Source: Alphaproteobacteria bacterium MarineAlpha3_Bin2 (lineage in GTDB: Bacteria; Pseudomonadota; Alphaproteobacteria; Rhodospirillales; Casp-alpha2). Taken from it: a stretch of 43,879 nucleotides of DNA. Position numbers and translations under genes: made by a program. Location of the stretch: contig PTLL01000012.1 of the NCBI GenBank assembly GCA_002938315.1, positions 1 to 43,879 of the forward strand. Reading direction: 5' to 3'. Of this stretch, positions 20,487-30,921 are shown piece by piece. A model generated the notes under the pieces. It did no database searches. It saw only the letters and a program-made list of their open reading frames with translations, and was not told the origin of the DNA. Within the stretch, counting starts at the first letter, position 1; each line of letters opens with the position of its first letter.

Positions 20487-23135
20487 CTATTCGTTTGCGG
20501 CTTCTGGTGCAGTTTCAGACGGGGCTGGGGGGTTGGATTTTTTAGCGGCGGGTTTCTTTTTCTTCGTCGCCTTTTTCTTTTTCGGTTTCGCCGCTTTTTT
20601 AACGCCCTTGCCGTTTTTCTTGGCTTTCGCGTCCAACAGTTCCAGGGCTTGCTCTAAGGTGACGGAGTCGGGGTCGGTGCCTTTCGGTAAGGTCGCCATC
20701 AGCTTGCCGTGCTGCACGAACGGCCCCCATCGGCCGACCTTCTGGACCACCGGCTTTTTGTCCTTCGGATGGCTTCCTAATTCCTTGGGCGGCGCTTTCC
20801 GTGGCACATCGGCCAACAGGTGAGAAGCCCGGTTTAAGCCGATGGTCAGGACGTCATCGCCTTCTTTCAAAGATACATAGGTGCCGCCGACCTTGATGAA
20901 GGGGCCGAACCGACCGAAGCCGGCGGTAATCATATCGCCGGTTTCCTCATCAATGCCGACATCCCGGGGCAGGCTCAGCAGCCCCAGTGCGATTTCCAGA
21001 TCGACATCGACCGGGTTTGACGATTTCGGGATCGACGCCCGTTTCGGTTTGATCTTCTTCTTGCCCTCAAGGGCCTCTTCACCCCGTTGCACATAAAACC
21101 CGTACGGACCCTTGCGGAGACTAATCAAGTCGCCGGTATCCGGGTCCGGGCCCAGTTCCTTCGGCCCACTGGCGAGAAGCGCCTCGTCACCACCGTTGCC
21201 GTTGGTGACCTCCAACGGCCGGGTAAATTTGCATTCGGGATAATTATTGCAGCCGATGAAAGCGCCGAACTTACCGAGTTTCAGGTTCAGCCGTCCGTCG
21301 TCACAGGACGGGCATTTGCGGGGATCGGAACCGTCTTCGCCGGGACGGAAGAAATGCGGCCCCAACAGTTCGTCCAGCTTGTCGAGGACTTCCGACACGC
21401 GCAGGTCCTTGGTCTCGTCGATGGCGTTGTTGAAGGCGTCCCAAAATTCGTGCAATACCGCTTTCCAGTCGACGCGGCCACTGGAAATGTCATCCAGCTT
21501 GTCTTCCAGATCGGCGGTAAAATCGTATTCCACGTAGCGGTGGAAATAACTTTCCAGGAAGGCCGTCACCAACCGCCCGCGATCGACGGGCTCGAACCGG
21601 CGCTTGTCCAGAATGACGTAGTTGCGTTCCTGAAGCACCGAAATGATGCTGGCGTAGGTGGATGGGCGGCCGATGCCCAATTCCTCAAGCCTTTTGACCA
21701 GGCTGGCCTCGGTAAAGCGCGGTGGCGGCTGGGTGAAATGCTGGTCCGGGGTGACGGCAATGCGTTCCAGCGCCTGGCCTTCGGCCAAGGGCGGCAGAAT
21801 CTTTTCGTCGTCTTTGTCATCCAGGTCATCCTTGCCTTCCCGATACAGCCTGTAAAAACCATCGAACACCACGGTTGAGCCGGTCGCCCGGAAGATTACC
21901 TGGCCGTCCCCTCCGCCTTCACCAGAGCCGATGTCGGCGGCGACCTGGTCGAGCACGGCGGATTCCATCTGGCTGGCGATGGTGCGGTTCCAGATCAGCT
22001 GATAGAGACTCTTCTGTTCGGGATCCAAGTGTGCCTCGACGTCCTTGGGGCGTCGCATGACATCCGTGGGGCGGATCGCTTCGTGGGCTTCCTGGGCGTT
22101 CTTGGCCTTCGATTTATACGCGCGCGGGCTACCCGGTACATAGTCGCTGCCGTATTCCCGACCGATCAGGGACCGGCACCCGCCGATGGCTTCATTGGAA
22201 ATAAAGACGCCGTCGGTCCGCATATAGGTGATCAGGCCGACCGTTTCGCCGCCGAGCGAAATGCCTTCGTAGAGGCGCTGCGCCACCTGCATGGTGCGCT
22301 TGGCGGTCATGCGCAGCTTGCGGGACGCTTCTTGTTGCAAGGTAGAGGTGGTAAACGGTGCCGCCGGGTGCCGCCGGGCCTGTTTCTTCTCGACCGAGCT
22401 GACGGAAAAATCGCGGCTGAGGGCGGCATCGACGGCGGCGGTGGCGGCGGCCTCATTGCCTAAGTCCATCTTGCCAAGCTTGTCGCCGTTCAAGTGGGTC
22501 AACGCCGCATTGACGGTGTCGCCGGCCGGCGTCTTGAAATCGGCCTGGATGGACCAGTATTCCTTGGGATCAAAATTCTCGATATTGGTCTCGCGCTCGC
22601 AGATCAGGCGAAGCGCGACTGATTGCACACGGCCGGCGGACTTGCTGCCCGGGAGCTTCCGCCACAACACCGGCGACAGGGTGAATCCGACAAGATAATC
22701 CAAGGCCCGGCGCGCCATATAGGCATCGATTAATTCGGTATCAAGATCGCGGGGGTGCTTGAAGGCTTCCAAGATCGCGGACTTGGTGATTTCGTTAAAG
22801 ACAACGCGCTTGACGGTGACGTTGTTCAGCTTTTTCTGTTCGTCCAAAATTTCCCGCACGTGCCATGAAATGGCTTCGCCTTCGCGGTCCGGGTCAGTGG
22901 CCAGGTAGAGGTGATCGGCCCCCTTCAGCGCCTTCGATATTTCCTTAAGGTGCTTTTGCGCCCGGTCATCGATTTCCCAATCCATTTCGAAGTCGGCATC
23001 GGGGCGCACGGAGCCGTTCTTGGACGGCAGATCGCGGACATGGCCATAACTGGCCAGCACGGTGTACTCCGTGCCCAGATATTTATTGATGGTTTTAGCC
23101 TTGGCCGGGCTCTCGACAATGACAACGCTAGACAT
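20487..23135 (-). CDS. topA: DNA topoisomerase I
   Basis: This enzyme relaxes negative supercoils through a 5'-phosphotyrosine intermediate. The 882-residue protein starts with the TOPRIM domain (VVIVESPAKAKTINKYLG; DPDREGE at 81-87) and has the catalytic Tyr304 in GLITYMRTDGV. A single CPSC...CNNYPEC zinc ribbon lies near 607-635. Repeated domains follow in which cysteines are lost (GPYGFYVQRGEE, GRFGPFIKVGGTY, GRWGPFVQHGKLM). The tail is a Lys/Ala-rich stretch typical of alphaproteobacterial TopA. GGAG precedes the ATG by five bases. It is preceded by the dprA remnant, 18 bases upstream, and followed by rnr. Confidence 0.97.
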   Translation of the reverse strand: MSSVVIVESPAKAKTINKYLGTEYTVLASYGHVRDLPSKNGSVRPDADFEMDWEIDDRAQKHLKEISKALKGADHLYLATDPDREGEAISWHVREILDEQKKLNNVTVKRVVFNEITKSAILEAFKHPRDLDTELIDAYMARRALDYLVGFTLSPVLWRKLPGSKSAGRVQSVALRLICERETNIENFDPKEYWSIQADFKTPAGDTVNAALTHLNGDKLGKMDLGNEAAATAAVDAALSRDFSVSSVEKKQARRHPAAPFTTSTLQQEASRKLRMTAKRTMQVAQRLYEGISLGGETVGLITYMRTDGVFISNEAIGGCRSLIGREYGSDYVPGSPRAYKSKAKNAQEAHEAIRPTDVMRRPKDVEAHLDPEQKSLYQLIWNRTIASQMESAVLDQVAADIGSGEGGGDGQVIFRATGSTVVFDGFYRLYREGKDDLDDKDDEKILPPLAEGQALERIAVTPDQHFTQPPPRFTEASLVKRLEELGIGRPSTYASIISVLQERNYVILDKRRFEPVDRGRLVTAFLESYFHRYVEYDFTADLEDKLDDISSGRVDWKAVLHEFWDAFNNAIDETKDLRVSEVLDKLDELLGPHFFRPGEDGSDPRKCPSCDDGRLNLKLGKFGAFIGCNNYPECKFTRPLEVTNGNGGDEALLASGPKELGPDPDTGDLISLRKGPYGFYVQRGEEALEGKKKIKPKRASIPKSSNPVDVDLEIALGLLSLPRDVGIDEETGDMITAGFGRFGPFIKVGGTYVSLKEGDDVLTIGLNRASHLLADVPRKAPPKELGSHPKDKKPVVQKVGRWGPFVQHGKLMATLPKGTDPDSVTLEQALELLDAKAKKNGKGVKKAAKPKKKKATKKKKPAAKKSNPPAPSETAPEAANE

Positions 23136-23153
23136 GGTTCTCCGTAGGGTTTT

Positions 23154-24220
23154 TTACTTTTTTATCAGCGAAACCTGATTGCCCGGATGACGTTCTAAAC
23201 GACCCGCCAACTCCAATTCCAGGAGCACCCAGGACACGACGGGGGGGAGGAGCATTGGCAGTTACGAATGATTTCGTCAACTAAAGTCGGCGCTGGACTC
23301 AAACTTTTTTCAACCTCCCCCCGCGCCGGGCCGAGCTCATCCAGCGTTGGCGGTTCCAGAGAAATTCTTTTAAAATCAATATCTTCCATGTCTTTTAAAG
23401 GCGCCCTTTCGGCGTCATTCAGGGCCTGGAGGACATCATCGGCCGATTCCGTCAGAATTGCCCCTTGGCGGATAAGATGGTTGGTTCCCTTCGCCCGCGG
23501 GTCGACGGCGGCGCCGGGAACGGCAAAGACCTCGCGGTTTTGTTCCAGGGCCATTCTGGCGGTGATCAACGAGCCGGACCGGGGGCTGGCCTCGACGACG
23601 ACAACGCCCCTGGCGATCCCCGAAATCAGACGGTTGCGACGCGGGAAATGGCGGGCTTGCGGCTGGGTGCCGGCGGCGACTTCGGAAATGATCGCGCCTT
23701 GCTCTTTAATCTTGTCATAGAGACCTGCGTTTTCCTTCGGGTAGACCACATCGATGCCGCGGGCCAAACCGGATACCACCAACAAACCGCCCGCGCCCAA
23801 ATCCCGGGCGATCCGTTCTGCGAAGTTCAGGCCGTTGGCGGACGCATTGCGGGCGCCGACGACGGCGATGGCTTTTTTGGTCAACAAATGGCGGTTGCCG
23901 AGCACGCTGATCAACGGCGGCGCGTCTTCGATATAGGCCAACAGCGGCGGGTAGGCGGGCTCCCCCCTGGTGATGAGCTCGGCACCAATCTTGTTCAGGG
24001 ATTCGATTTCGCGCTCGGCGTTGGCCTTGGCCCCGACCTGCAGTTTTTTTTGAGCGTCCGCCCTGCCGTGCCAGGTCCGGCAGCCCTTTCAGGGCCGCAC
24101 CGGCGGTGCCGAACCGCTCCAACAATTGGTAGAACGTGATCGGGCCGACATTGTCGGATCGGATCAGGCGCAACCAGTCGAGCCTGTCATCGGCGCTAAG
24201 TGTTTGGACACGGGGTTCAT
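23154..24220 (-). pseudogene. dprA: dprA (smf), degraded by indels and an internal deletion
   Basis: DprA loads RecA on incoming single-stranded DNA. Reading frames together restore a DprA-like protein, but four lesions are visible. (1) The best ATG (24220) is out of frame with NVGPITFYQLLERFG; one more C in the C4 run at 24212-24215 would join them. (2) The A8 run (24044-24051) shifts the frame after GGRSKK; seven A would continue to LQVGAKANAE. (3) SGLARGID is joined directly to VVYPKEN near 23750-23757, dropping about 22 residues normally present in the Rossmann core, in frame. (4) A C7 run (23241-23247) throws the winged-helix C-terminus out of frame; the shifted frame reads VVSWVLLELELAGRLERHPG. 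Unless these are sequencing errors, the gene is dead. It lies between topA and an efflux pair. Confidence 0.85.
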
Positions 24221-24300
24221 TCTTGGCGGACGCAACCTAAAAAGTTCAAGTTCTGTTCTATTGCAGGCCATGGTTGCCGCGCAAGGGGGATTTATCAAAC

Positions 24301-25845
24301 CTACTTCGTCCGTTTAAGCATCCAGGCCGGGATCAGGGCGGCGATGAAGACCATGGATATTACCAAAAAGGCGTCCTGGAAGCCGAAGGTCTGGGCCTGG
24401 GTGTGGATGACCGCGCTGAGGAAATCATAAGCGCCGGCTTGGCTGGCGGCATCCGGCAACCCGGATTCCGATAACAACCGTTCGACCTTGCCGAGCATCT
24501 CCCGGGTCAGGCTGTTGGCCGAGGTCTGGGTCGCGGCCAGGGCGTCGGCGTGATAGGCGGTGCGGTATTCCATCACCACGACGACGAGGTTGATGCCGAA
24601 GGCGCCGCCCAATTGGCGGGTGAAGTTGTAAGCGCCCGCCGCCTTATTGATCCGGTCCGGCGGAATGCCCCGCATCGCCGCCGCCCCCATGTTCGGCATT
24701 ACCAGGCCCAGTCCTAAGCGGCTGAACACGGCGAACACGGCGACCATCACGAACGGTGTATTAACGTCGCCGCCGGACATCAAATAGGTGGCCAAGGCGA
24801 ACAAGGCGACGCCGGTCATGATCGGGTAATGGGGCGGCACCCGGTCGGCGAGCTTGCCGGCAAACGGAATCATCATCATCAGCAACAGCCCCGCCGGCAT
24901 TAGCACCATCCCCGCCTTGGTCGGGGTAAAGCCCTGGATGGTCTGGGCGAACACGGGGATCGCATAATTGGTGGCGAAGTTGCCGGCGCCAAAGACAAAG
25001 GCGATGACCATGGCGGCGGCGAAGCGGGGATTGAGGAAAAAGGAAAGGTCCAGCAACGGCGCCTTGGCGTGGGCCTGCCAATAGACGAAGGCGGTGGCGG
25101 CGATGATGCCGATAGTGAACAACCCCAAAATGCCGTCGGACCCCCAGCCCCAGCGATGGCCATTGCCGATACCGGTCATCAGGCAGATCAGCCCGGTCGC
25201 TAAAAGCACGTACCCGGTCCAATCGAATGCCGGCAGCCGGCGCGAAAATTTCTTCGACGGCATGAACACCACTCCCATTGCGAAGGAGATCGCCACCAAG
25301 GGCATCGGCACCAGGAAAATGTGCCGCCAGGATAAAGCGTCAATGGTGAAGCCACCGACCAGGGGGCCCAGGCTCGGCGATAAGGTCACGCCCATGCCGT
25401 AGAGCCCCATGGCGAAGCCCCGGCGTTCCGGCGGGAACACCAAAATAATTGTCGCCATCACCAGGGGCTGAATGATACCGGCGGAAAACCCCTGCATGAT
25501 CCGCCCGACGATCAGCATTTCGATGCTGATACTGACGGCGCATACCGCGGACCCGATGGAAAAGATAATCAGGGTTAGGGTATAGGCCAGCCGCTGGCCG
25601 AAGGCGGAGACCATCCACGAATTCAGCAACTGGCTGGCGACCATAGTGGCGACAAACGCCGTCGCCGCCCATTGCGCCATGTCCTGGCCGACGCCATAGG
25701 CGCCCATGATCGACGGCACCGCGACGTTAACCATGGTCGCCGACAGCACCATGGTCATGGCGCCGAGCATACCGGCGGAGGCGACTAGCCAGCGATAGGC
25801 CGGGCCATAGCGTTGAAACTGTTGTTCAAGGGTTGCGGATGTCAA
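24301..25845 (-). CDS. DHA2-family MFS multidrug efflux permease, EmrB-like
   Basis: A 514-residue inner-membrane proton-coupled exporter with about 14 transmembrane helices. Family motifs include VNVAVPSIMGAYG in helix 1, the motif-A-like QLLNSWMVSAFGQRL, GLYGMGVTLSPSLGPLVGGF (motif C) and NFTRQLGGAFGINLV near helix 11. It probably forms a tripartite pump with the membrane-fusion protein encoded just upstream, whose reading frame overlaps this start by 20 bases. The start is TTG at 25845, because an in-frame stop lies six codons above it. No outer-membrane TolC-like gene is in the window. Substrates cannot be read from sequence. Confidence 0.92.
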   Translation of the reverse strand: MTSATLEQQFQRYGPAYRWLVASAGMLGAMTMVLSATMVNVAVPSIMGAYGVGQDMAQWAATAFVATMVASQLLNSWMVSAFGQRLAYTLTLIIFSIGSAVCAVSISIEMLIVGRIMQGFSAGIIQPLVMATIILVFPPERRGFAMGLYGMGVTLSPSLGPLVGGFTIDALSWRHIFLVPMPLVAISFAMGVVFMPSKKFSRRLPAFDWTGYVLLATGLICLMTGIGNGHRWGWGSDGILGLFTIGIIAATAFVYWQAHAKAPLLDLSFFLNPRFAAAMVIAFVFGAGNFATNYAIPVFAQTIQGFTPTKAGMVLMPAGLLLMMMIPFAGKLADRVPPHYPIMTGVALFALATYLMSGGDVNTPFVMVAVFAVFSRLGLGLVMPNMGAAAMRGIPPDRINKAAGAYNFTRQLGGAFGINLVVVVMEYRTAYHADALAATQTSANSLTREMLGKVERLLSESGLPDAASQAGAYDFLSAVIHTQAQTFGFQDAFLVISMVFIAALIPAWMLKRTK

Positions 25846-27129: not shown

Positions 27130-27735
27130 CTAACCGCTGATTTTCGGTTCCTCGCCCTTGAGCATGCGGCGGATATTGGCGTAGTGGCGAATGATCGACA
27201 GCAGCGCCAAAATTGCGGCGGCCACGGCCACCGGTTTGTTGTCCATGCCATAGGCGTAGACCGGGGATGCCGCCAGCGCCACCAAGGCGGCCAGCGACGA
27301 GATCCTGAGCGTACCGGCGACCAGCAACCAAGTAGCGCAGGCGGCGACGCCGACCGGCCAAAAAGCGACCAATAAAATGCCCAAGGTCGTCGCCACCCCT
27401 TTGCCGCCCTTGAATTTCAACCACACCGGAAAATTATGGCCTAGGACCGCCGCGATCCCCGCGATCAGCCCGGAACCGGATCCCCATCCCAGGCCCCATT
27501 CACCGGCGACGAAGGCCAAAGCCAACGCCCCCTTGCCGCCGTCCAGCACCAAGGTCGCCGCGGCCAGGGTTTTGGAGCCGGTGCGCAGCACGTTGGTGGC
27601 GCCGATGTTGCCGGAACCGATTTCCCGCACATCGCCTAAACCGGCGAGTCGCGTCAGCACCAATCCGAAGGGAATGGAACCGATGGCGTAGCCAACCGCA
27701 ATGGCGGCCAGGAAGAAATGCCAAAGGCTGTCCAT
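27130..27735 (-). CDS. plsY: Glycerol-3-phosphate acyltransferase PlsY
   Basis: PlsY transfers an acyl group from acyl-phosphate to glycerol-3-phosphate at the inner membrane, the first step of phospholipid synthesis. The 201-residue protein has five to seven hydrophobic segments and the family motifs GSIPFGLVL, REIGSGNIGATNVLRTG, GHNFPVWLKFKGGKGVATTLG and RHYANIRRMLKGEEPK. It starts three bases after the pyrC' stop and probably belongs to the pyrB-pyrC'-plsY transcript. In many relatives dprA and topA follow directly; here an efflux pair intervenes. Confidence 0.95.
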   Translation of the reverse strand: MDSLWHFFLAAIAVGYAIGSIPFGLVLTRLAGLGDVREIGSGNIGATNVLRTGSKTLAAATLVLDGGKGALALAFVAGEWGLGWGSGSGLIAGIAAVLGHNFPVWLKFKGGKGVATTLGILLVAFWPVGVAACATWLLVAGTLRISSLAALVALAASPVYAYGMDNKPVAVAAAILALLSIIRHYANIRRMLKGEEPKISG

Positions 27736-29996: not shown

Positions 29997-30073
29997 AAGC
30001 CGGAAATATATGAACTTAACCCCCGCGGTGCAAGCATTGGCCTAAATGTTGTGTCCCTATAGAGTACCGGCCC

Positions 30074-30921
30074 ATGGAGGAGTACCGAAAAACCCACGAA
30101 CGCCTGGTTCGGGTGTTCGACAAGGAAATCGTTTTCATCATCGGCGCGACCCGGTGGGGAACGGCCTGGTTGCAGCAATGCCTGGATGCCCACCCGGAAA
30201 TTTGCTGCAAGGGTGAAGGCCACTTTACCGACAGCCTGTTCCCGCTGTTGGCGGGGGCCTTCGATGCCTATAACGCCCAGTCCGAAGTGGTCGGCAACCG
30301 TTTGCAGAATTCGGGCTTGCCGGGCAATGCCGCCGGGTTCACCGTCGATGACGTCCATCACCTGATGACCGCCGCCATTGGCCTGATGTTCAGCCGCTGG
30401 GCGGGGGACGGGCAGGTCAAGGTGATCGCCGAAAAAACACCCGAACATATCGTCTCGCTGGACAAGCTGGCTCAATCGGTGCCGTCCATGAAAATCATCC
30501 ATGTTTATCGCGACGCCCGCGACGAAGCGGTGGCGGTGTGGGAATTCAACCAGGGCATCAGCCAGGGCGCATTCCAGCAGAAATATCCCCAGTTCGGAGA
30601 GTACGCCAAGGCTTTGCCGCCAATTGGCGCCAAAGCATTTCCGCCACCCGGACGTTTGAGCGCACCCATAAGGGCCGATGTTGCCATATCCGCGCCGAAG
30701 GCTTCCAGGGCGAGGAGGTGCAATCGCTTCGCCCGCTGTTGAACTTCCTTGGCGTGGATGATAGCGAGACCATCATCGAGAACTGCGCCGACATTGCCTG
30801 GGAGGCGGTGCCCCTGGATGTTGATCCCGGTACTTGGAAGAAGAAATTCGATGCCGACGGTAGGCAATTCTATCAACGCGAATGCGGTGAGCTGCTAAAG
30901 TTGCTGGGCTATGAGGTGTAG
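30074..30921 (+). pseudogene. Sulfotransferase with a single frameshift
   Basis: The N-terminal frame (30074 onward) reads FIIGATRWGTAWLQQCLDAHPEI, the 5'-phosphosulfate-binding loop. It continues to KIIHVYRDARDEAVAVWEF, the 3'-phosphate-binding motif of PAPS-dependent sulfotransferases. Near 30613-30615 the frame is lost at a T3 run; with four T the reading would pass from EYAKA into AANWRQSISATRTFERTH and on to the stop at 30921. The shifted part is undamaged and ends with GELLKLLGYEV, so this is a single lesion: a recent mutation or a base-calling error. If intact it would be about 282 residues. It abuts the YnfA-like gene (TAG then ATG). Confidence 0.75.

Follow-up and report, generated by a model that had tools for sequence, protein, structure and literature searches.

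The DNA considered here, called the window, is a stretch of 43,879 nucleotides that forms contig C24 of the draft genome (G000) of an uncultured alphaproteobacterium. The genome consists of 2,272,903 bases in 123 contigs, with a completeness of 97.08% and a contamination of 0.13%. On the minus strand, the genes follow each other in the order plsY, an HlyD-type gene, an MFS transporter gene, a remnant of dprA, topA, rnr, and an S41 peptidase gene. The MFS transporter gene (24301-25845, minus strand), which is the upstream neighbor of dprA, and topA (20487-23135, minus strand) are both whole. Each has a family match and a single frame. The original prediction had described topA, rnr, and plsY as intact flanks. 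All three have family matches and lie in single frames, but plsY (27130-27735) is not adjacent to dprA, since the MFS and HlyD-type genes intervene.

The remnant of dprA, a helper gene in DNA uptake, occupies 23157-24242 on the minus strand, between the MFS transporter gene and topA. When it is compared by tblastn with the protein of the intact relative G004, it falls into three pieces (24242-24057, 24064-23219, and 23246-23157) in three different frames. The PF02481 profile (DNA_processg_A) is matched in two stretches, at 3-87 and 110-209, both within one open frame of 297 residues. At the same site, G004 has a whole dprA frame of 385 residues, with 80.5% identity over the aligned part. Alignment with close relatives had been proposed as a check of the damage, and it bears the damage out: the gene is whole in G003-G009.

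In the sequence as assembled, two of the frame changes are located at homopolymer runs. The first is at a run of eight A (24044-24051, minus strand), as seen in the base alignment and by tblastn. The second is at a run of seven C (23241-23247, minus strand), placed by base alignment; the relative G001 likewise loses its frame at this run. At this 3' run, the remnant and G004 differ by more than run length. A third run-length frameshift had been proposed at a run of four C (24212-24215), where the start of the gene is too divergent for a cause to be assigned. The start (24173-24220, minus strand) is damaged nonetheless. The ATG at 24220 is in a different frame from the conserved N-terminal residues, and the first start-type codon in the frame of those residues is a TTG at 24173, with no in-frame ATG or GTG. 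This start lesion is real, and its nature is uncertain.

The fourth lesion is an in-frame deletion in the core of the gene, between the segments coding for SGLARGID and VVYPKEN (junction at 23747-23759, minus strand). It was initially put at 22 residues. The base alignment confirms the deletion and gives its size as 63 nucleotides, or 21 codons, with 63 gap positions against G004; the missing segment is present without gaps in the ten relatives shown, G004 included. In an alignment with the R. palustris DprA of solved structure (3maj_A, E 5.1e-102), the missing residues fall on conserved positions. They presumably form part of the Rossmann fold. Near-identical copies of GGCATCGACG, spaced 63 nucleotides apart, flank the segment in G005, G020, and other relatives, so it was probably lost by deletion between short direct repeats. 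The proposal that the deletion joined two similar sites coding for GID or GVD is thus borne out, with GID/GGID-coding copies as the bounds.

A functional DprA should match PF02481, possess a single open frame with a start codon, and have an unbroken core (GID...GGxD). The remnant has the first of these features and lacks the other two. From its sequence, a working DprA protein is not to be expected. The remnant contains no nonsense codon downstream of the presumed start, which counts against a loss of the gene. On balance, dprA in G000 is most likely a pseudogene, real and recent.

The damage had been thought to be local. It is not, for three other genes of DNA uptake are broken or gone elsewhere in the genome. 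In comEC, on contig C80, the Competence domain is split over two frames, and comparison with the 728-residue protein of G004 places the frame change at a T run around residue 294. The comF gene, on contig C69, lies in three frames and has several gaps relative to G004. Since all comF matches fall below the NCBIfam cut-off (0 of 61 genomes above it), they were judged on E-value and coverage. For comM there is no match in G000. The gene is matched in eight of the ten genomes of the genus and absent from G000 and G001. On contig C97 of G000, stretches matching both sides of the comM region of G004 lie 98 nucleotides apart, with no N between them.

Some further differences are seen around comM. 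A repeat-rich gene beside it in G004 is much shorter or different in G000. Also beside comM in G004 (L046, 5732-5996) is what looks like a small mobile element, a repeat about 263 bases long whose inverted ends measure about 37 bases. G004 has several more copies of it; in G000 there is one, partial, on contig C47.

The four uptake genes are found on four contigs, so a single local accident is no explanation. Genes with other roles are kept. The control radA, which has a role in repair, is full length in G000. Within the window, 28 genes could be set against G004 or G003, after manual selection of the real frame at every locus, and 26 of them lie in a single frame. The exceptions are dprA and a sulfotransferase-family gene (about 30049-30921, plus strand), which loses its frame near 30612 in the window and is whole in G004 and G003. 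This unrelated broken gene indicates that general erosion contributes.

The same loss recurs among relatives. A search for dprA, comEC, comM, and comF covered 61 genomes, namely G000 and 60 relatives in its order, of which 34 have a completeness of at least 90% and a contamination of at most 5%. Five of the 34 lack an intact dprA (G000, G017, G019, G025, and G030), and the identical five lack an intact comEC (Fisher p 3.6e-6 over the 34 genomes, uncorrected for kinship). All five have no comM match and only weak or partial comF matches. Three genomes were counted as intact despite small defects: G018 has one TGA in its comEC match, G054 has a partial comEC profile, and in G059 dprA is split at contig ends. 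Among the 34 there are also some further misses: G013 and G053 have no comM, the comM match of G059 contains a stop, and comF is weak in G037.

The five genomes belong to five genera (g1, g9, g11, g5, and g3), and both dprA and comEC are whole in other members of g1, g9, g5, and g3. This pattern of loss is repeated in three less complete genomes, G021, G035, and G036, the first of which has just a lower-scoring PF02481 match. In G030 and G035, fragments of dprA and comF containing stops are left over, and these two genomes are apparently related to each other, their decay being older and further gone. At their dprA sites (L037 and L038), the stop-bearing fragments stand before an intact topA. 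Other less complete genomes do not fit joint loss: dprA alone is missing in G002, G047, and G048, and comEC is missing in G012, G029, and G056. These misses may be assembly gaps.

The control radA is full length in G001, G017, G025, G030, G035, and G036. In G019 it is only weakly matched, so the loss there reaches beyond uptake genes. G001, which is 86% complete, has no match for comEC, comM, or comF, and its contig ends short of the comM site. The end of its dprA lies at a contig edge (contig C58, L023 about 380-524) and is out of frame at the C run noted in the window, whereas G007 and G008, close relatives of it, have whole copies. G001 is thus no more than suggestive of a second loss in the genus. 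Taken together, natural transformation is, as judged by gene content, lost jointly and repeatedly in several genera of one family, and this is a known kind of event.

The age of the decay can be approached through substitutions, polarized between the branches of G000 and G004. In dprA, there are nine amino-acid and 19 silent changes on the G000 branch, compared with ten and 14 on that of G004. The corresponding counts are 19 and 27 versus nine and 21 in comEC, ten and 13 versus nine and six in comF, 13 and 34 versus seven and 32 in the MFS transporter gene, and 14 and 54 versus 21 and 49 in topA. A neighbor of comF (comF_nbA), meant as a control, has no countable sites. Relaxed selection is not seen in dprA, where amino-acid changes are not in excess on the G000 branch; comEC alone leans that way. 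The lack of an excess means either that the loss is recent or that the lesions are partly artefact. We read it as a recent loss.

The best explanation, to which we give a probability of roughly 85%, is that the lineage has lost natural transformation, with dprA a recent pseudogene decaying together with a broken comEC, a broken comF, and a deleted comM. In this model, selection for DNA uptake would first have lapsed. Slippage in homopolymer runs and the deletion of a segment lying between short direct repeats could then have become fixed, and the 3' end of dprA may have been spared because it carries the promoter of topA. The observations behind the model are the lesions as assembled, the whole copies in close relatives, and the joint absence across several genera. 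The earlier interpretation survives as far as it took dprA for a true pseudogene that had suffered a deletion at two similar sites. It does not survive in confining the damage to one place.

Another model is general genome reduction, in which the uptake genes were lost merely as part of a random erosion of nonessential genes. G000 measures 2.27 Mb, and the completeness-corrected genome size of the five losers is smaller than that of 13 family members that keep the genes (p 0.003, from rounded sizes and uncorrected for kinship). The broken sulfotransferase-family gene fits this model as well. Against it, four of four tested uptake genes in G000 are struck while 26 of 28 compared window genes are whole, and the loss is joint in five genera. 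As the whole explanation, reduction is doubtful, at something like one chance in several. It is compatible with the loss of uptake and not opposed to it.

Errors of sequencing or assembly could also make a whole dprA look broken, through miscalled run lengths and a collapsed repeat. This artefact had been named at the outset as the alternative. The frame changes in dprA and comEC do occur at or beside runs, dprA has no relaxed substitution pattern, and the assembly is a draft in 123 contigs. Errors of this kind would have to concentrate in one pathway across several contigs, whereas the 26 in-frame window genes are undisturbed in a stretch with 21 homopolymer runs of at least seven. Moreover, comM is gone although both of its flanks lie on one contig, and comF and the core of dprA are altered by longer gaps and not by runs. 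Artefact is therefore unlikely. Finally, phase variation, with the C run toggling dprA on and off, could be imagined, since several relatives have a long run there and both G000 and G001 are out of frame at it. It is scarcely credible because the partner uptake genes are broken too and because all ten relatives shown conserve the residues that the core deletion takes out, so that no run length restores a whole protein.

One part of the pseudogene has not followed the decay attributed to the loss of uptake. The final 100 or so nucleotides of dprA are hardly changed. Among codons for the same residue, G000 and G004 differ silently in 74 of 234 within codons 30-330, in two of 18 within codons 331-350, and in three of 32 within codons 351-383. 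In the six intact genomes of the genus, alignment columns that are invariant in residue are invariant in codon as well in 11 of 18 cases within codons 345-369, compared with 37 of 185 elsewhere (p 4e-4, for a range chosen post hoc, after the alignment had been viewed).

This region contains a motif of 32 nucleotides, TTGAC-N17-CCAATGCTCC (23249-23280, minus strand), located inside the 3' end of dprA and 113 nucleotides before the ATG of topA. The common form of the motif is TTGAC-N16/17-CCAANTCTCC. The copy in G000 has one mismatch to it, which is the same in the intact G003, G004, and G006. With up to two mismatches and within 300 nucleotides, the motif is present before topA in all 36 relatives searched, which are ones with the topA start covered and are not a random draw from the 60 relatives (a 37th, G043, was left out because its start is not covered). 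The reversed motif, used as a control, has no match in 19,404 positions. In 22 of the 36 loci the motif lies within the dprA frame, where it codes for VDE..R.CQ.S or nearly so. In seven it lies past the dprA stop, including that of the broken dprA of G035. The remaining seven have no intact dprA in the stretch; they are six losers and G011, whose dprA is further away.

A search for the exact pattern finds matches in 47 of the 61 genomes, many of them not near topA. Both exact matches in G000 are away from topA, because its topA copy has the one mismatch. Across 289 genomes of the class, a stricter form of the motif gives three exact matches, two of which are in or between dprA and topA. The distribution over the 36 loci and the 289 genomes indicates that the motif is associated with topA and belongs chiefly to the order.

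The motif may be a promoter of the sigma-70 type. The layout is TTGAC, a spacer of 17-18 nucleotides, and AANTCT, placed 50-163 nucleotides before topA, whether or not dprA is there. The first box fits TTGACA, and the second does not fit TATAAT. We consider 23249-23280 a probable topA promoter that shares its DNA with codons of dprA. No topA promoter within dprA is described in the titles and abstracts found in the open-access literature. If the motif is a promoter, dprA and topA share DNA, and that end would be needed even after the death of dprA.

Alternately, the motif may be a binding site for a regulator or part of a leader RNA of topA. The departure of the second box from TATAAT would suit such a role, as would a generic promoter scan of 23100-23400, which does not call the motif and reports a single site, on the plus strand. 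Conservation also extends beyond the motif, to about codon 369. The TTGAC box, the spacing of 17-18 nucleotides, and the distance to topA suit a promoter instead, and Rfam gives no match over 22500-24700 up to an E of 1. A regulator site or leader RNA is a less probable alternative to the promoter.

The position of the motif may have shaped how dprA dies. In sisters of the losers in g3, g5, and g9, the motif is outside dprA, and in the losers of these genera dprA has vanished or crumbled. In G000, and perhaps in G001, the motif is inside dprA and the end of the gene remains. These are few cases. One reading is that a topA promoter lies in the winged-helix codons of dprA across much of the order, fixing the residues VDE..R.CQ.S and influencing the death of the gene; on the sequence evidence we give this joint reading an even chance. 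If it is true, a dprA with the promoter outside it can be erased, whereas with the promoter inside it the last 100 or so nucleotides of the dead gene must stay. Such an overlap of one gene's control site with the coding end of another would account for the unchanged part of the dead dprA.

The loss of uptake, with its dprA pseudogene, is of an ordinary kind and its details are well resolved; the finding that most deserves pursuit is the probable control site of topA within dprA. What the case adds to the published ones is the joint damage to all four uptake genes, with parallels in several genera. One lineage is caught with its broken genes still readable, so the order and cause of the loss become testable.

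Related systems are known. In Rhodobacter capsulatus, uptake from the gene transfer agent (GTA) by recipient cells involves ComEC, ComF, ComM, and DprA acting together (PMC10883770). R. capsulatus has a GTA, whereas the GTA marker PF13547 has no match in any of the 61 genomes here. Loss of a GTA within the group thus fails to explain the pattern, and it is ruled out as the cause.

ComEC has been lost in some endosymbionts and intracellular bacteria whose relatives keep it (PMC6299819). As in the family of G000, a whole uptake gene is gone in some lineages and kept by their relatives. There the loss is reported mainly for host-bound bacteria and for ComEC; here four uptake genes are lost together, across several genera within a single family of Alphaproteobacteria.

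Other examples involve mobile elements. In Piscirickettsia salmonis, such elements interrupt comEC, while dprA and comM are described as intact (PMC12955456). The likeness lies in a broken uptake gene, there across a whole species; unlike P. salmonis, G000 shows no insertion and has all four genes damaged. In Acinetobacter baumannii strains, comM is inactivated mostly by insertion of mobile elements (PMC11472951). Here too an uptake gene is lost in a group whose other members retain it, but in G000 comM is deleted and the other genes carry small lesions.
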